The position numbers and the translations under genes are program-made. From positions 1 to 64,000 of the forward strand of contig CACWZP010000014.1 in the NCBI GenBank assembly GCA_902765395.1: a stretch of DNA of 64,000 bases, read 5' to 3'. Positions 1-7,971 of the stretch are shown here, in pieces. The stretch's first letter is position 1; the number at the start of each line of letters is the position of its first letter. A model generated the notes under the pieces. It was not told the DNA's origin, did no database searches, and worked only from the letters and a program-made list of their open reading frames with translations. The DNA comes from an uncultured Eubacteriales bacterium. GTDB taxonomy: Bacteria > Bacillota > Clostridia > Christensenellales > Aristaeellaceae.

Positions 1-53
1 TTCCTGCATATACATAAGGTGCTGCAGCCTCCAGCGTGCGCTTTGGGTGAGTA

Positions 54-169
54 TTCCGGGCGATTCTGAACCGCCGTTCCGGCGTTACAGTACCGCTATT
101 CCGTTTTCGACGATACCGCGAATCCGGGATTCGGATACCGTGATTCCGGTCAGATGATACCGATTCCCT
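54..169. repeat. Six-copy, 22-bp-period repeat array
   Basis: The motif ATTCCGG or a close variant occurs at about 54, 76, 98, 121, 143 and 163. Each copy from the second on is preceded by ACCG (70, 92, 115, 137, 159). Spacing is 22, 22, 23, 22 and 20 bp, close to two helical turns, which places the sites on one face of the DNA. The array ends at the promoter of the chimeric regulator. Such arrays are typical transposase binding sites in IS21-family ends. Confidence 0.7.
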
Positions 170-172
170 TTA

Positions 173-208
173 TAATGAATTCATACGCTTTGCAGCGTAA
201 ATTCATTA
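173..208 (+). promoter_or_regulatory. Hairpin overlapping a TATAAT -10 box
   Basis: A TATAAT hexamer lies at 171-176. It overlaps an inverted repeat whose arms are AATGAATT-CA-TACGCT (174-189) and AGCGTA-AATTCATT (194-207), with a TTGC loop and a two-base bulge. A strong ribosome binding site, AAGGAGG (211-217), follows. No good -35 is seen 17 bp upstream. The palindrome could be an operator or a leader hairpin. Confidence 0.45.
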
Positions 209-226
209 CGAAGGAGGTCACCATTT

Positions 227-886
227 ATGACCAAGTATCGTGAGATCATCCGGCTTGCCGGGTTGAATCTCAGCCAAACCAACATTGCCCTTAGCTGTAA
301 TGCATCCAAGACAACTGTCAACAAGGTGCTGAAGGCAGACATCCAGAACATCCGCTCCACGCTGGATGAGATGGACATCAACGCCTTCGAGGACGCCATA
401 GAAAAGATCATCGGCGCGCGCAGCATCTACGTGCTGGGCCTGCGGGCTTCCGCGCCTATCGCCGAGTTCTTCGGCCACTACCTGCGCTTCATCTTCCCGA
501 ACGTGACCGTGGTCACCAGCGGCGTCAGCGACGTGTTCGAGCAGCTGGCCCGCATCGGCGAGGGCGATCTGCTGATCGGCATCTCCTTCCCGCGCTACAC
601 GGCCCGCTCCATCGAGGCCATGGAGTTCGCCCGTGGCCGGGGCGCTTCGCTGATCGCCATCACCGACGGCCCGCTTTCGCCGCTGCACGCCACGGCGGAC
701 ACCTGCCTGATGGCCAAGAGCGACATGTCCTCCTTCGTGGACTCCTTTGCCGCGCCGTTGTCGCTGATCAACGCGCTGATCGTGGCGCTGGGCCAGCGCA
801 GGCGGCACGAGGTGACCGAGTACTTCGAAGAGATGGAGAGCATCTGGGGCCAGTACGACGTGTACCTGGCCAGGACCACCGAGTGA
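227..886 (+). CDS. Chimeric regulator: IstA-type HTH fused to RpiR-type SIS domain
   Basis: The protein has 219 residues. Residues 1-36 (MTKYREIIRL, a GLSQ-like turn, ending TVNKVLK) read like the N-terminal helix-turn-helix of IS21 IstA transposases. From about residue 37 (ADIQNIRSTLDEMD) the protein reads like the linker and SIS sugar-phosphate-binding domain of the RpiR/MurR family, with IYVLGLR, a VTSGVSD stretch and a GDLLIGIS segment. The usual RpiR helix-turn-helix of about 77 residues is missing. The ATG is set by AAGGAGG ten bases upstream. The flavoprotein gene follows 12 bp later, probably in one transcript. The protein may be a functional regulator with a borrowed DNA-binding helix or a decaying fusion. 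The domain assignments are secure; the function is inferred. Confidence 0.8.
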   Translation: MTKYREIIRLAGLNLSQTNIALSCNASKTTVNKVLKADIQNIRSTLDEMDINAFEDAIEKIIGARSIYVLGLRASAPIAEFFGHYLRFIFPNVTVVTSGVSDVFEQLARIGEGDLLIGISFPRYTARSIEAMEFARGRGASLIAITDGPLSPLHATADTCLMAKSDMSSFVDSFAAPLSLINALIVALGQRRRHEVTEYFEEMESIWGQYDVYLARTTE

Positions 887-898
887 CAGGGGATTGAA

Positions 899-2146
899 AT
901 GAGTCAGAAGCGAATCATCGTTATAGGCGGAGGCGCGGCCGGTATGATGGCCGCGCTCTTTGCGGCAAGGGGCGGGGCGGCCGTCACGCTGCTGGAGCGC
1001 AACGAGAAGCTGGGCAAGAAGGTGTACATCACCGGAAAGGGCCGCTGCAACCTGACCAACGCAGCGGACATGGAGGAGTTCCAGCGCAATATCTTCCGCA
1101 ACCCGCGCTTTATGTACGCCGCCTTTGCCAACCTGGACAACCGCGGCGTGATGGACCTGGTGGAGGGCCTGGGCACGCCGGTGAAGGTGGAGCGGGGAAA
1201 CCGGGTGTTTCCCGTCTCCGACAAGGCCAGCGACGTGATCGGCGCGCTGAAGCGGGGCCTGGACCGGGAGGGCGTGCGCGTGCGCCTGAATATCCGCATG
1301 GAGGGGCTGATCGAAAAGGAAGGCCGCTGCACAGGCGCAAAGCTGGAGGGTGGCGAAGCGCTTCCGGCGGACGCGGTGATCCTGGCCACCGGAGGGCTGA
1401 GCTATCCCTCCACCGGCTCCACCGGCGACGGCTACCGCATGGCCGAGGAGACAGGCCACGCCGTGACGGAGACCCTGCCCGCGCTGGTGCCCATCGAGAC
1501 GGTTGAAAGCTGGCCGGGCGTGCTGACGGGGCTTTCGCTGAAGAACGTGCGGCTGACGGCCTGGCAGACGGGCGGCAAGAAGGAAAAGAAGCTGTATTCC
1601 GACATGGGCGAGATGCTGTTTACCCACTTTGGCATCTCCGGCCCGCTGGCGCTGACCCTCTCCAGCTACCTTCCCGGGGACCTGTCGGGCGTCCGCATGG
1701 AGATCGACCTGAAACCCGCCCTGGACGATCAAACGCTGGACGCACGGCTCCTGCGCGATTTCAAGGCCATGTCCCGCAAGCAGCTGATCTCCGTGATGGA
1801 CGGCCTCGCGCCGCACAACCTGGCGGAGCAGCTGGTGAAGCTGGCGGGGCTGACGCCCACGATGCCGGTGAACGGCGTGACGTCCCAGCAGCGCGCGGCG
1901 CTGCTCAACGTCATCAAGCACGTGCCACTGACGCCCAAGGCCCTGCGGGACTACAACGAGGCCATCATCACCCGGGGCGGCGTGAGCGTGAAGGACATCA
2001 ACCCCTCCACCATGGAGAGCAAGAGACTGCCCGGGCTCTACTTCGCCGGGGAGCTGATCGACGTGGACGCCGCCACCGGCGGTTTCAACCTGCAGATCGC
2101 CTGGTCCACCGGGGCCCTGGCGGGCAAGAGCGCGGCGGAGGCATAG
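899..2146 (+). CDS. BaiN/YhiN-family FAD-dependent oxidoreductase (HI0933-like)
   Basis: This 415-residue flavoprotein has an N-terminal FAD-binding Rossmann motif GGGAAGMMAA (residues 10-19), the family signature GRCNLTN at about 47-53, and a C-terminal FAD motif around GLYFAGELIDVDAATGGFN. It matches the aminoacetone oxidase/BaiN-like family of NAD(P)/FAD-dependent oxidoreductases. Their physiological substrate is usually unknown, although BaiN itself reduces bile-acid intermediates. Length is normal and no membrane segment is seen. It lies 12 bp after the chimeric SIS regulator, so the two are probably cotranscribed, but nothing shows that the regulator controls it. Confidence 0.9.
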   Translation: MSQKRIIVIGGGAAGMMAALFAARGGAAVTLLERNEKLGKKVYITGKGRCNLTNAADMEEFQRNIFRNPRFMYAAFANLDNRGVMDLVEGLGTPVKVERGNRVFPVSDKASDVIGALKRGLDREGVRVRLNIRMEGLIEKEGRCTGAKLEGGEALPADAVILATGGLSYPSTGSTGDGYRMAEETGHAVTETLPALVPIETVESWPGVLTGLSLKNVRLTAWQTGGKKEKKLYSDMGEMLFTHFGISGPLALTLSSYLPGDLSGVRMEIDLKPALDDQTLDARLLRDFKAMSRKQLISVMDGLAPHNLAEQLVKLAGLTPTMPVNGVTSQQRAALLNVIKHVPLTPKALRDYNEAIITRGGVSVKDINPSTMESKRLPGLYFAGELIDVDAATGGFNLQIAWSTGALAGKSAAEA

Positions 2147-2194: not shown

Positions 2195-4039
2195 CTATTT
2201 CAGCTTCTCAAAGTCCGCCGCGCCGTGCTTGCACAGGGGGCAGACGAAGTCGGCGGGCAGCTCCTCGCCCTCGTAGACGTAGCCGCAGATCTTGCAGACC
2301 CAGCCCACCTTCTTCTCGGCGAGCTTCGGCGGCTTGGGCTTGATATGGTCGAAGTAGTAGGCGTAGGTGACGGAGGGGGCGCTGGAGAGCACCTGGGCCT
2401 CGGTCACGTCGGCCACGAACAGGGTGTGGGTGCCGTAGTCGTGGCTCTCCACCACCTTGCCGGAGATAAACGCGTTCACGCAGCCGGTGATGAAGATCAG
2501 GCCGTTCTTGCTGCGGGGGAAGCCGCTGCCTGGGAACTTGTTCACGTCGCGGCCCGACTGGAAGCCGTAGTACTTGAAGATGTCAAAGGGCGCCTCCGTG
2601 GTCAGCACCGACACGTTGAACAGCCCGGTCTTCAGGATCATGTCGTGGGTGAAGTTGCCCTTGTTCACGGCGATGGTGATGCGGTTGGGGTTGCTTGTCA
2701 GCTGGGCCGCGGTGTTGATGATGCAGCCGTTGTCCTTGTCGCCGTCCTTGGCCGTCAGCACGAACAGGCCATAGCTCAGCTTGAACATGGCGTTGGGCTC
2801 GATGGCCTCGCTGGCCTTGTGCTCGATCACCTCTGCCTTCGGCAGGGTGTCGACGATGGCGTTCACCAGCTCGTCCAGCTCCGCTATCTGGCTGTCCTTC
2901 AGCGCGGACTTCAGCGTCAGCGTGCTCTCCAGGATGGTCACGTTCTTGAGCCGGCCCAGCAGCTCGCGCATCAGGCCGCCGGAGGTGGGCGCCCAGCTGC
3001 CGTTCTCCATGATGGCCACGGTGCGGTTCTGCAGGTTGTGGGCCACGATGTCGTGCAACGCGTTCTCCATGTTCACGAAGATGCCCGCGTTGTAGGTGGT
3101 GGAGGCGAACACGATGTGGCTCACCCGGAAGGCCTCGGAGACGATGTAGGAGGGATGGGTGACGGAAACGTCGTACATCTTCATGTTGCGCACGCCGGCG
3201 TCGGCCAGCTTGCTGGCGATGATGTTGGCGGCGTTCTCGGTGTGGCCGTACACGGAGGCATAGGCGATCATCACGCCGTCCTCCTCGGGGGTATAGCTGC
3301 TCCACAGCTGATACTTCTCGATGAACCAGCCGATGTCCCTGCGCCACACGGGTCCGTGCAGCGGGCAGAGCATCTGGATGTCCAGGGCGGCGGCCTTCTT
3401 CAAAAGCGCCTGCACCTGGGTGCCGTACTTGCCGACGATGTTGGTGTAGTAGCGGCGGGCCTCGTCCAGGTAATCCGCCTCGAAGTTCACCTCGTCGGCG
3501 AAGATATTGCCGTTCAGCGCGCCGAATGTGCCGAAGGCATCGGCGGAGTAGAGCACCTTGTCCGTGGTGTCGTAGGTGACCATGACCTCCGGCCAGTGTA
3601 CCATGGGGGCCATCACGAAGGTGAAGGTGTGCCGCCCGGTGGTGAGCGTGTCCTTCTCCTTGACCAGGGTCACGCGGCTGTCGATGTCGAAGGTGAAGTA
3701 GTTCTTGATCATGTTCAGCGCCTTGGCGTTGGTCACGATCTTCACGCCCGGATAGCGCAGCACCAGCTCCGCCATGGTGGCGCAGTGGTCCGGCTCCATG
3801 TGGTTGACGATCAGATAGTCCAGACTGCGGCCGTCCAGCAGGTGTTCCAGGTTCTCAAAGAACACCCCGCTGACGCTCCTGTCCACGGTGTCCAGCAGCA
3901 CGGTCTGCTCGTCCAGCACAAGATAGGCGTTGTAGGAGACGCCGCCGGGCACGGGATAGACGTTCTCAAACAGGGCCAGCCGCCGGTCGCTGCCGCCCAC
4001 CCAATACATATCCTGTGTGATCCGCTTTTCGCAATGCAT
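2195..4039 (-). CDS. Flavodiiron protein with flavin reductase and rubredoxin domains
   Basis: The 614-residue cytosolic enzyme has four modules. Residues 1-250 form a metallo-beta-lactamase-like diiron domain with the ligand motif HMEPDH at 80-85 and later ligands in APMVHW, YSADAFG and CPLHGPV. Residues 255-395 form a flavodoxin-like FMN domain (AYASVYGHTENAA). Residues 400-560 form a flavin reductase-like domain. Residues 565-614 are a rubredoxin with CKICGY and CPLCKHG. The family reduces O2 to water, or NO to N2O, in anaerobes. The fused rubredoxin and flavin reductase suggest a self-contained electron path from NAD(P)H. The gene stands alone with its own sigma-A promoter and a strong AAGGAGG site. 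Confidence 0.93.
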   Translation of the reverse strand: MHCEKRITQDMYWVGGSDRRLALFENVYPVPGGVSYNAYLVLDEQTVLLDTVDRSVSGVFFENLEHLLDGRSLDYLIVNHMEPDHCATMAELVLRYPGVKIVTNAKALNMIKNYFTFDIDSRVTLVKEKDTLTTGRHTFTFVMAPMVHWPEVMVTYDTTDKVLYSADAFGTFGALNGNIFADEVNFEADYLDEARRYYTNIVGKYGTQVQALLKKAAALDIQMLCPLHGPVWRRDIGWFIEKYQLWSSYTPEEDGVMIAYASVYGHTENAANIIASKLADAGVRNMKMYDVSVTHPSYIVSEAFRVSHIVFASTTYNAGIFVNMENALHDIVAHNLQNRTVAIMENGSWAPTSGGLMRELLGRLKNVTILESTLTLKSALKDSQIAELDELVNAIVDTLPKAEVIEHKASEAIEPNAMFKLSYGLFVLTAKDGDKDNGCIINTAAQLTSNPNRITIAVNKGNFTHDMILKTGLFNVSVLTTEAPFDIFKYYGFQSGRDVNKFPGSGFPRSKNGLIFITGCVNAFISGKVVESHDYGTHTLFVADVTEAQVLSSAPSVTYAYYFDHIKPKPPKLAEKKVGWVCKICGYVYEGEELPADFVCPLCKHGAADFEKLK

Positions 4040-4366: not shown

Positions 4367-4393
4367 GCGGCGGCCCTGCGGCCGCCGCTTTCT
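4367..4393. terminator. Terminator between DUF1540 gene and gerC
   Basis: A perfect 9-bp GC stem, GCGGCGGCC-CTGC-GGCCGCCGC, is followed by TTTCT on the plus strand. It touches the stop codon of the convergent gerC gene. Confidence 0.75.
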
Positions 4394-5516
4394 ATTGCGC
4401 TTCAACACTGTGGATTTCGACCTGTACGGTCACGTTCGCACGCCTGTACTGCTCCCGCCAGTCACTGGCCAGCCAATCCGGCACGGTGGCAAAATGCCCG
4501 GCGGCGGCCTCTGAAAAGCCGAAGGGCTCCGCCCCGAGTCGCTGGCATTCCCGTATCACGTCGATCAGCGACGAGGCGAGCCTGGCTTCGAGCCTCCTTG
4601 CGTCCTCGGCGCACACGTCGTCCAGGGTGGTCAATCTGACGCGAAGCGACAGCGCCGCGCCGCCATCCTCCAAATCCACACTCAGATGCGGCCTGCCCTC
4701 CGTCGTCAGGGTAAAGGCCTTTCCGTCACATTCAAAGGGAAGCGCCTCGATGCTGCCGCGGATCAGGTTCAGAAGCCGCGTCTGGCCCGCGTCCAGCGTG
4801 CCCACCATGCGTCCCTGGCGGAACAGCGCAGCGCCTTCGTATCTTTGGCGCATGGGGGATTGGATGCCTGCATCCGGGGAGCCTATCGGGTCGATCATCG
4901 AAACGGCCGGGGCTTCCCCGGGCATCAGGAGGCAGAGTATGGCTGCCGGGTCGCCGTAGATGGAGCGCGACAGATAGCAGGCGTCCGCGAAGATGCCGTC
5001 CGGAACGAAGCCCTGCCGAACATAGTGGTCCAGCATGGCGCTGATCTCCGAGGACAGCCGTGTGCCGATGACGGTCTTCATGGCGCCGATGAATTCGGAG
5101 GCTTGTCCTGCGCAGACCGCGAAGCGGGCGGTGGTGTACAGGTGGGGCGTTTTGGCGATCCTGGCGATCAGCTCGCCAAAGCCTTCCTCCTTCGCCAGCG
5201 CTTCGGAGACGACGATCATGCCGATGTGGCTCAGGTTCATCTGCCGTGGCGTGGCCCGTTCCAGCGCGTCCAGTGCATGGGGCCAGTCCGCCCCGTTCGC
5301 GGAGAATGCCAGGTAGTCCCCGCCGCCGCTCTCCTCACCGGGCTTGCCCTTGCCGATCTGCGGTACACGGGCGGTGAGGAGAAGCTGTCCGTCCGCCGCC
5401 CGGTCGATGCCCAGCACCAGCACATAGGCCTGGTTCTCCAGCTCGCCGGAGACGTGACAGCCGCCCAGCGTCAGTGAGGACAGGACGATCAATGCGATCA
5501 GGCTTCGGATAAGCAC
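4392..5516 (-). CDS. gerC: Spore germination protein GerC (lipoprotein subunit)
   Basis: The 374-residue protein is the last gene of a gerA-gerB-gerC operon. It starts at a GTG preceded by GAAGGGAGG and begins with a lipoprotein signal peptide ending in the lipobox LTLGGC. The mature part starts with a GerC-like stretch around LVLGIDRAADG and has the family's Ger(x)C layout with the SNISHIG-like segment MNLSHIGMIVV. It should be anchored outside the spore inner membrane as part of the nutrient germinant receptor. The open frame extends far upstream of this start over gerB, but that extension is only an overlapping frame. It overlaps gerB by 19 bp, which suggests translational coupling. Confidence 0.85.
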   Translation of the reverse strand: MLIRSLIALIVLSSLTLGGCHVSGELENQAYVLVLGIDRAADGQLLLTARVPQIGKGKPGEESGGGDYLAFSANGADWPHALDALERATPRQMNLSHIGMIVVSEALAKEEGFGELIARIAKTPHLYTTARFAVCAGQASEFIGAMKTVIGTRLSSEISAMLDHYVRQGFVPDGIFADACYLSRSIYGDPAAILCLLMPGEAPAVSMIDPIGSPDAGIQSPMRQRYEGAALFRQGRMVGTLDAGQTRLLNLIRGSIEALPFECDGKAFTLTTEGRPHLSVDLEDGGAALSLRVRLTTLDDVCAEDARRLEARLASSLIDVIRECQRLGAEPFGFSEAAAGHFATVPDWLASDWREQYRRANVTVQVEIHSVEAQ

Positions 5517-6496
5517 GGGCTGCGGCCTCCCTTCAAGAGCATTGTCGCGGCGGTCAATGCGCCGACTGCCGGGTACGCCCATGGCGCGACGGCGTCTATC
5601 CAAGCGGGCAGCGCTTCCAGCCGCGACAGCATTAGTGCTGCTGCAACGACGATCAACGCGCATATCTTGCCGTCCAGGCGCCGGAACACCCTCTGTATCA
5701 GCGCCGCCCCGGCAAACAGCTCGCACAGCACGAGATGGAACAGCCCCGCAAACCAAAACGCGATCATTGGCAGCTGCAGGTAAAGCGGGGCGCGCCCATT
5801 GCACAGCAGCGCGTCCAGCCGGTCCAGCCATCCGCCAGAGGAGAGCGGTGCGGGCACCATCATCAGCTGCAGCGCGATCAGTATCGCGGATATTCCGGCT
5901 GCGATTGGAATAAGTGTCGCAGAAGCCATGGGACGATCCTGTTCCTCCGGCAGCAACAATATAGCGGAAGCTGACGCGATCCATCCCGCTGACCTCACGC
6001 CGCCCTCGAGGATCTCTGACCAACCGCTTCCGAGAATGGGACACAGCCAAGCAGGCCGGTAATAGGGCCATTGCAACAGCGCCACGACCAGCAGCAGCGC
6101 CGGTGCGATCCGCACCCAGAGCATCGCGCCGTAGCCAACGGCGTCTCCGTTGCGCCAGGCGCACCAGAGCGCTGCGATGCCCGTCGGCAGAAACAGCGCC
6201 AGGGCGGGGGAGCGATCCAGCGCCAGATAGCCCGCCGAGCGGTTGACGGCGGAAAGCACCCCGGCGGCATCCAGCAGCGAGAGAAGCGCCAATAGCGCAG
6301 GCAATGCCTTTCCCCGGGGCTTGAACCGGCAGACGCAGAACGCCCACGGCTGCGCCAGCAGGCCGCCGATCAGCGCCGAGATCCATGCGCCGTTGCACGT
6401 CAGGGACGCGTCCAAGGCAAGTCCAAGGAACAACCGCGCGGCGACGGCGGCCAGCGCGGCGAAGCGGGCCGGGTGGGAGGCGATCGACAGCCTCAT
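5498..6496 (-). CDS. gerB: Spore germination protein GerB (integral membrane subunit)
   Basis: This 332-residue protein is almost entirely hydrophobic, with roughly nine to ten membrane segments, as in the amino-acid-permease-like GerB subunit. A GerB-like sequence, PILGSGWSEILEGG, lies at about residue 170. It is divergent and Ala/Leu-rich, slightly shorter than usual (about 360), and is identified largely by its place between gerA and gerC. The ATG overlaps the gerA stop codon in an ATGA arrangement and has GGAAGGCG upstream, so the start is well supported. In germinant receptors this subunit is thought to bind the nutrient. Confidence 0.8.
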   Translation of the reverse strand: MRLSIASHPARFAALAAVAARLFLGLALDASLTCNGAWISALIGGLLAQPWAFCVCRFKPRGKALPALLALLSLLDAAGVLSAVNRSAGYLALDRSPALALFLPTGIAALWCAWRNGDAVGYGAMLWVRIAPALLLVVALLQWPYYRPAWLCPILGSGWSEILEGGVRSAGWIASASAILLLPEEQDRPMASATLIPIAAGISAILIALQLMMVPAPLSSGGWLDRLDALLCNGRAPLYLQLPMIAFWFAGLFHLVLCELFAGAALIQRVFRRLDGKICALIVVAAALMLSRLEALPAWIDAVAPWAYPAVGALTAATMLLKGGRSPCLSEA

Positions 6497-7971
6497 CGGG
6501 ACGCCTTCCTTCCGTTGGCCGCGAAGAACATTGGCCTGCGCTGCAGCCAAACCGGCAGCCGCAGCAGCAGGTCCGGGTTGTGCGGCCTGCGCGGCGCGAC
6601 GGGCGCGAGATAGGGGATGCCCACCGAGCGCATGCCGCACAGGCTGATGAGCATGACGAACGCCGCCAGGCATACGCCGTACAGCCCCAGTGCCGCGCCC
6701 AAGGCGATCACGAACAGACGGCAGATCACCAGGCCGATGCCGAACCCATAGTCCGGTATGGCGTAGTTCCCCAGGCCGGTGATGGCCACGATGATGATGA
6801 GTATGGGACTGATGATGGATGCCGAGACCGCCGCCTGGCCCAGGATCAGCGCGCCGACGATGCCCAGCGCCGAACCGATCTGCTGGGGCATGCGGGTGCC
6901 CGCCTCGTTGATCAGGTAGAACGAGAACTCCATGATGAGTATCTCGGCCAGTATGGGGAAGGGCACGTTGGCCCGGGCTTCCGCGATGGAGCCGATCAGG
7001 CTCAGCGGCAGGAGGTGCATGTGGTAGTCCGTCAGCGCGATGTACAGCCCCGGCAGGAACACGGAGATCAGCATGCCAGCCACGCGGATCAGCCGCAGGA
7101 AGCTGCCGTACTGCCAGCGGGCAAAGGAATCATCCGAGGCGTGCAGCTGGTGAAACAGCGTCACCGGCGCGATAAGCGCGCAGGGCGAGTTGTCTGCCAG
7201 GATCGCCACCTGGCCCTCCATCAAACAGGACGCGGCACGGTCGGGGCGTTCGGTCTCAAGCAGCTGCGGCAGCAGCGCCCATGGGCTGTCCTCGATCAGC
7301 TGCTGGACGGTACCCAATCCCTGCACCGTGGGCGCGTCGATGCCCTTCAGGCGGCTGCGCACCGCATCCACGATCTCCGGCTTCGCCGTTCCCTCCAGAT
7401 AGGCCAGCACCACCCGGCAGGGCACCGCGCGGCCCACCTCCAGGCACTCGGTGATCAGCCGGGGGGAGGGCACATAGCGCCGAAGCAGCGTCATGTTGGT
7501 GCGCAGGCTCTCCACGAAGCCCTCCTGCGCGCCGATGACCACGGATTCGTTGGTGGTGCGGTTCACGTTTCGCGCCGGATAGCCGCGGGTCTCCAGCAGC
7601 GCCGCCTCGCAGCAGCCGTCCATCAGCACCGCCGTCATGCCGGTGACCACCTTGCCGAGGATCACCTCCACCCGGCTCTCCGTCTCGCACTGGGCGATCT
7701 CCAGCACGTTCTGCGCAAGGTAATCCATGTCGGGCACCATGTCCTCCGGCAGCGTCCGTTCGGCGCAGGCCCGCAGCACGAAATCGTTGATCTTCTTGTC
7801 GTCGGCCATACCCTCGATGTAGATGACACACAGCTCCGTGCCCGCCAGTCGCAGGAAGCGGAACTGGGCGTCGGAGTTGACGGGACTGTTCAAGAGCGCC
7901 CTGAACGTTTCCACATCCTTTGAAAGCGCGCCGGTGAGCTGTGAGCGCAGCCGCTTCTCCCTGTTCTCCAT
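6493..7971 (-). CDS. gerA: Spore germination protein GerA (receptor A subunit)
   Basis: The 492-residue protein is a typical GerA/SpoVAF-family subunit. It has a soluble N-terminal half of about 280 residues (FRFLRLAGTELCVIYIEG, VEVILGK) and a C-terminal half with several membrane helices (LPGLYIALTDYHMHLLP, FPILAEILIMEFSFYLINEAG). GerA subunits form oligomeric nutrient-gated channels in the spore inner membrane. The start has GGGAGG eight bases upstream. It opens the gerABC operon and is preceded by a sigma-G-like promoter, consistent with forespore expression. Confidence 0.93.
   Translation of the reverse strand: MENREKRLRSQLTGALSKDVETFRALLNSPVNSDAQFRFLRLAGTELCVIYIEGMADDKKINDFVLRACAERTLPEDMVPDMDYLAQNVLEIAQCETESRVEVILGKVVTGMTAVLMDGCCEAALLETRGYPARNVNRTTNESVVIGAQEGFVESLRTNMTLLRRYVPSPRLITECLEVGRAVPCRVVLAYLEGTAKPEIVDAVRSRLKGIDAPTVQGLGTVQQLIEDSPWALLPQLLETERPDRAASCLMEGQVAILADNSPCALIAPVTLFHQLHASDDSFARWQYGSFLRLIRVAGMLISVFLPGLYIALTDYHMHLLPLSLIGSIAEARANVPFPILAEILIMEFSFYLINEAGTRMPQQIGSALGIVGALILGQAAVSASIISPILIIIVAITGLGNYAIPDYGFGIGLVICRLFVIALGAALGLYGVCLAAFVMLISLCGMRSVGIPYLAPVAPRRPHNPDLLLRLPVWLQRRPMFFAANGRKASR

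Follow-up and report, generated by a model that had tools for sequence, protein, structure and literature searches.

An apparent in-frame fusion of an IS21 transposase N-terminus to an RpiR-type SIS domain at a contig end is most probably a false join

Introduction

Close to one end of a contig from an uncultured Eubacteriales bacterium, a single open reading frame joins the start of a transposase to the sugar-phosphate SIS domain of a transcriptional regulator. RpiR/MurR regulators bind DNA through an N-terminal helix-turn-helix (HTH) and sense a phosphosugar with their SIS domain, and a frame of this composition raises the question of whether a cell has replaced the DNA-binding half of such a protein with one taken from a mobile element, or whether the two halves were never together in a cell. 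The window, meaning the whole stretch of DNA analysed, comprises bases 1-64000 of contig C14 (80,554 bases), which belongs to a draft assembly of 53 contigs and 3.38 Mb. Because the window begins at C14 base 1, the frame starts 226 bases from a contig end. A first-pass annotation, made from the letters of the window, had proposed a new regulator created by capture of a transposase DNA-binding helix, with exaptation, decay after insertion and deletion, and an assembly join as competing readings.

Results

The open reading frame at 227-886 on the + strand encodes a 219-residue product (open reading frame listing and translation) in which residues 1-36 of IstA are followed, in frame, by an RpiR SIS domain. 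By Pfam, the SIS domain (PF01380) occupies residues 61-187 with 92 bits against a cut-off of 25; a sub-threshold SIS_2 match is the sole other match at E up to 1, and no HTH_6 domain was found at that limit. Against NCBIfam, RpiR/MurR models ranked at the top, far under their cut-offs, with a best score of 54.4 of 378. The product therefore contains the C-terminal SIS domain of RpiR/MurR proteins and no N-terminal HTH_6 in the same polypeptide. A plausible ribosome-binding site, aaggagg, precedes the frame. Directly 3' of rpiR lies a gene for an HI0933-like FAD-dependent oxidoreductase (899..2146, + strand; Pfam HI0933_like, 281.7 bits), and the same order, rpiR followed by the HI0933-like flavoprotein gene, is present in the related genome G018. 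Elsewhere in the window, frames at 4392-7971 on the - strand resemble spore-germination proteins of the GerA/B/C type, judged by eye from the translation.

To the left of the join, the sequence belongs to an insertion sequence (IS). A degenerate KTTVNKVLK pattern, run against genome contigs, returned 14 loci, 11 of which (L055-L059 and L063-L068) resemble the window DNA, the other three (L060-L062) matching merely over 10-16 residues. Over residues 1-36 there is no difference from the IstA N-terminus of a Lachnospiraceae bacterium (L058) and of Clostridium sp. Marseille-P2415 (L067), which bears out the annotation's assignment of the first 36 or so residues to IS21 IstA; seven further loci are 86-94% identical over all 36 residues (tblastn), and L065 and L063 match them partially. 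At the DNA level, the window from 48 to 336/338 is 82-83% identical to L068, L064, L055, L056 and L059. According to NCBI taxonomy, seven of the 11 related copies are carried by Lachnospiraceae (L055, L058, L059, L063, L065, L066 and L068), and the records of the other four name Fimimorpha, uncultured Clostridia, Eubacterium sp. ER2 and Clostridium sp. For window 263-341, no DNA relative found is closer than L065 (3152-3230, Hominifimenecus microfluidus), which is 95% identical there; its istA match starts at window 263, near a contig end.

The left boundary of this piece is defined by comparison among copies. The motif TGAGTATTCCGG stands at the base equivalent to window 48 in eight IS copies, with 12 of 12 bases conserved in seven and 11 of 12 in L059, and the DNA to its left is unrelated among the eight; single alignments extend further left, to 42 in L058 and to 47 in G550. 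On this sequence comparison, we place the left end of an IS at base 48. The region 48..226 (+ strand) then comprises the IS21-family left end, beginning TGAGTATTCCGG and common to the eight copies, and a repeat-rich istA leader, and bases 1..47, the first 47 of C14, form the left flank of the IS piece. Codons 1-36/37 of istA, the HTH-1 region, follow at 227..338 (+ strand; tblastn) and are cut off at or inside 318-338.

A complete element of this type is available in L064, where the copy measures about 2640 bases, as estimated from the point at which homology between L068 and L064 stops, and encodes a complete IstA (519 aa) and IstB (258 aa). The IstA scores 78.8 bits for Mu-transpos_C_2 and 23.8 bits, under the cut-off of 32.6, for rve; the IstB scores 165.6 bits for IstB_IS21. 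Against the solved IS5376 IstA (PDB 8q4d, 8b4h), the L064 IstA matches over residues 64-362 (2.1e-14), so the N-terminal 36 residues fall outside the IS5376 match. Judged from these protein matches, the L064-type element is a member of the IS21 family. The piece in the window has the left end in common with other copies, and contains neither an istA with both HTH and DDE domains nor istB; the right end of the IS, sought with the left-end 12-mer, was not found.

We searched for the rest of the element and for its source. The remainder of the 2640-bp L064 element has no counterpart in the window's own genome at E <= 0.001, where window 48-336 (289 bases) is the sole match. A search of 300 genomes, own included, with window 1-345 and two candidates scored per genome, revealed neither a copy of window 1-317 nor the junction in the 299 other relatives; outside the own genome, G018 and G024 alone were matched, over the 28-base rpiR part. 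Among 396 genomes of the order, own included, the IstA N-terminus matched one other genome at E <= 1e-6 (G525, 72% identical). The 47-base flank gave nothing beyond 17-base overlapping matches in the own genome, no match beginning before base 42 in the 11 IS-bearing genomes, and no match in 397 genomes of the G548 family with two candidates scored per genome; 14 of those 397 have some match, none of which extends into bases 1-47, and five of the 14 were already among the IS-bearing genomes. Four patterns run against viral contigs returned 0 matches to a closer copy of the IS or to the 47-base flank, and plasmids gave none either, by protein or by DNA. The phage search yielded two partial matches, 71% identical over 167-321 and 78% over 170-285, corresponding to the leader and the istA start. 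An IS remainder missing from the assembly, together with the near absence of the IS piece from relatives, suggests that the piece did not originate in this genome but falls short of proof; a foreign origin is what we infer, because no genome was found in which this IS is accompanied by this 47-base flank.

Two further IS21-type sequences were seen in the genus. The own genome has a separate truncated istA (L002, C1:121713) with a 178-aa frame that is 48% identical to the window N-terminus, and G013 has another istA start (C38:520-630), 51% identical over residues 1-37. Other istA starts thus occur in this genus.

The right-hand part of the frame, 318..886 (+ strand), is the 3' part of an ordinary rpiR gene of the RpiR/MurR type and encodes the linker and the SIS domain. 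Protein comparison across 60 genomes, own included, identified matches from residue 28 onward at 87-97% identity in 25 of 27 genomes of the same genus (G007 has no match, and G012 a weak one with E 3.7e-4) and matches at 51-81% identity in all eight other genomes of the same family. The open frames of these orthologues span 288-370 aa, with one of 723. The latter is the first piece of a split rpiR (L038, G021:C242), which the window protein matches in separate pieces, residues 28-195 and 190-219, and is a frameshift or assembly error near the gene end. Throughout the 59 other genomes, strong matches begin at residues 22-33. Five weak matches begin at residues 5-19, four at 36-51% identity and one at 26%; they come from genomes of the same order outside the family and, with open frames of 290-344 aa, are taken from frame size as full-length RpiR-type proteins.

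These comparisons bear on whether the short N-terminus could be ancestral in some RpiR subfamily that has no relation to IS21. We fetched the locus from 29 relatives (25 of the genus and four of the family), and all 29 match the full RpiR protein from residue 1 (tblastn), L038 only to residue 266; the full-length G018 orthologue scores 55.1 bits for HTH_6 and 90.8 bits for SIS. The N-terminal half of RpiR is thus present in every fetched relative, orthologues occur in 25/27 and 8/8 genomes with the frame lengths given above, and residues 1-36 of the window protein are identical to the IstA of other genomes. No support for an ancestral short form was found, and we reject it, with full-length RpiR in the relatives, as having next to no chance of being correct.

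If the gene is ordinarily full length, its 5' half should be sought elsewhere in the assembly. The G018 DNA upstream of the join, comprising the rpiR 5' half and a divergent neighbour, maps to the minus strand of own contig C46 (1-1498) at 93% identity, and its other matches in the own genome span just 26 and 35 bases. C46 is 3416 bases long, is collinear with G018 throughout (92.6%) and ends within rpiR at GACATGGATCA (C46 base 1, minus strand). In all 29 relatives, exactly 11 bases lie between the homology of the C46 end and the start of the stretch at which the window becomes rpiR, and rpiR is continuous there. At the thresholds used, the assembly contains one rpiR 5' half and one 3' half, other SIS-type matches being 30-31% identical. 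The two halves of rpiR hence lie on separate contigs, both of which stop near one common position in this gene. The annotation was right that the frame itself has an RpiR/MurR SIS domain without its own DNA-binding domain, but that domain has not been lost: the HTH half is on C46.

Codon comparison with G018, the nearest relative, revealed 11 synonymous and 0 non-synonymous differences in the 95 codons of the C46 part, and 18 synonymous and 1 non-synonymous in the 188 codons of the C14 part, or 29 synonymous and 1 non-synonymous in total. From these differences, neither half appears decayed, and both look conserved.

At the other end of C46 (3115-3416, L050), a uridine-kinase-like gene, named by eye, is cut at 3416 and is 96% identical to G018. 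A second, different start of a uridine-kinase-like gene occurs at the end of C28 (L099; 86% identical to G018). The two starts, each at or near a contig end, may reflect either a paralogue or mixed strains. C22 holds the stretch that follows the uridine-kinase-like gene in G018, in a contig-internal position and not at an edge.

What, then, joins the two parents? Identity to the G018 rpiR begins at window 318. The 21 bases TCAACAAGGTGCTGAAGGCAG (318..338, + strand), common to istA and rpiR, occur exactly in the istA of three of the 11 related copies (L055, L065 and L068); the other eight loci reach at best 16-19 of 21. In the rpiR of all 29 relatives, 14-20 of these 21 bases match. The G018 rpiR has 19 identical bases in common with the istA of L055, L065 and L068, and 16 with that of L064. 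Sequence common to both parents at the join is TCAACAAGGTGCTGAAGGC(AG), a stretch of 19-21 bases (21 if the own rpiR has GCA there), as expected at a chimeric join. Behind the match is the motif NKVLK(A/T), which occurs in both proteins and is encoded in the same frame. Since both genes read the stretch in this one frame, any crossover inside it joins them in frame automatically, and the open frame is no sign of selection. The junction that the annotation had set near 334 does fall inside the stretch, but it is not a point: the crossover lies somewhere within 318-338.

The position of the join also bears on an IS21 insertion into rpiR followed by deletion and decay, with the frame as a pseudogene remnant. 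IS elements do insert into genes, and here an IS piece adjoins half of one. Simple insertion is nevertheless rejected because the sequence abutting rpiR is internal to istA and is no IS end; C46 is rpiR to its last base, without IS sequence; neither rpiR half shows decay; and the junction sits at the common stretch and not at a random deletion point. The annotation's reading of decay after insertion and deletion thus finds itself contradicted by both the undecayed halves and the internal istA point, and we consider it very improbable.

Discussion

We conclude that the fusion is, with a probability of roughly 0.84, a false join made by an assembler or in a chimeric read at the 19-21 bp stretch, splitting an ordinary RpiR/MurR gene; among the readings that the annotation had listed, the evidence favours its third, an assembly join. 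An ordinary rpiR of about 288 codons (HTH_6, linker and SIS) would run from C46 into C14, and the assembly would have broken it in the linker. The IS21 left end with the first 36 istA codons and the 47-base flank would then have been attached to the C14 side, because istA and rpiR have 19-21 bp in common in the same frame. The common stretch, the two rpiR halves, the collinearity with relatives and the missing IS remainder are the observations on which this reading rests; from them we infer how the join was produced and where the IS piece came from. One route could be that an assembler, working on a de Bruijn graph, bridged the two sequences at its smallest k-mer, k = 21 being where common assemblers start. 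Another could be a chimeric read or amplicon arising from template switching at the stretch. As for the IS piece, its probable source would be a different organism present in the sample, or else a copy that was not assembled. Counting against a false join are the extension of the contig by 47 bases past the IS end, which a simple artefact at a single k-mer need not generate, the other IS21-type istA starts in this genome (48%) and in G013 (51%), and the halt of C46 11 bases before the shared stretch.

The main competitor is that recombination at the 19-21 bp stretch did take place, very recently, and set the IS left end and istA start before the SIS half. We regard this as unlikely, and the accompanying proposal, that an IstA HTH-1::SIS protein is then expressed in the cell from the istA leader, as improbable to the same degree. 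The in-frame join with a plausible ribosome-binding site upstream, the presence of the IS left end from 48 and the occurrence of some IS21-type istA starts in this genome and genus all speak for it. So does the extent of HTH-1 in the IS5376 IstA, given as residues 1-39 in PMC10122671, so that most of a DNA-binding unit could fit within 36 residues. However, in-frame joining follows from the common reading frame of the two genes; the rpiR 5' half, with 0 non-synonymous differences in 95 codons against G018, lies at the very end of C46, so a real rearrangement requires that a conserved 5' half happened to remain precisely where a contig ends; the assembly has neither the IS remainder nor, lacking any istA 3' part, a reciprocal product; and the join occurs in no other genome searched (59 others in the protein comparison and 299 other relatives). 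Were recombination nonetheless correct, one strain would have swapped its own HTH for HTH-1 and put a phosphosugar-sensing domain under the istA leader, in a gene adjoining IS terminal repeats that HTH-1 could still bind, adding a new case in which a regulator has taken over the DNA-binding domain of a bacterial transposase.

A false join would leave little of the proposed new regulator. Searching the halves separately, as the annotation had advised, led on the left to the IS21 istA of other Clostridia and on the right to the rpiR of relatives. Capture of a transposase HTH is at odds with an HTH half present on C46, an IS remainder not in the assembly and a join, near a contig end, within 19-21 bp common to both genes. 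An exapted regulator would be expected to have its junction in more than one genome and its original HTH lost or decayed; related genomes, where the annotation had suggested looking for the same junction, carry it in 0 of 59 and 0 of 299 cases, and the original HTH half is neither lost nor decayed. Our literature search found no report of an RpiR-family SIS domain fused to a transposase. As a biological claim the fusion thus probably matters little. It does carry a caution: where two unrelated proteins happen to have a few residues in common in the same frame, a contig end can show a fusion that is in frame and makes sense by its domains, and the missing half is worth seeking at other contig ends first. 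On gene order and domain content, the real gene encodes an ordinary regulator of the RpiR/MurR type and lies immediately 5' of the HI0933-like flavoprotein gene. Like its family, the real protein should use its HTH on operator DNA and its SIS domain to sense a phosphosugar.

Compared with known systems, the locus resembles chimeric contigs and reads in its contig-end position, the 19-21 bp in common, two identifiable true partners and occurrence in one assembly only; it differs in being known from assembled sequence. With the IS21 family, the contig carrying the frame shares a left end and the first 36 istA codons, whereas the catalytic domain, istB and the right end are missing, and 289 of 2640 element bases match the assembly. 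With the HTH_6 and SIS regulators of the RpiR/MurR family, the frame has residues 28-219 in common, which are their linker and SIS domain, and the HTH_6 half that is absent from C14 sits on C46 of the same assembly.
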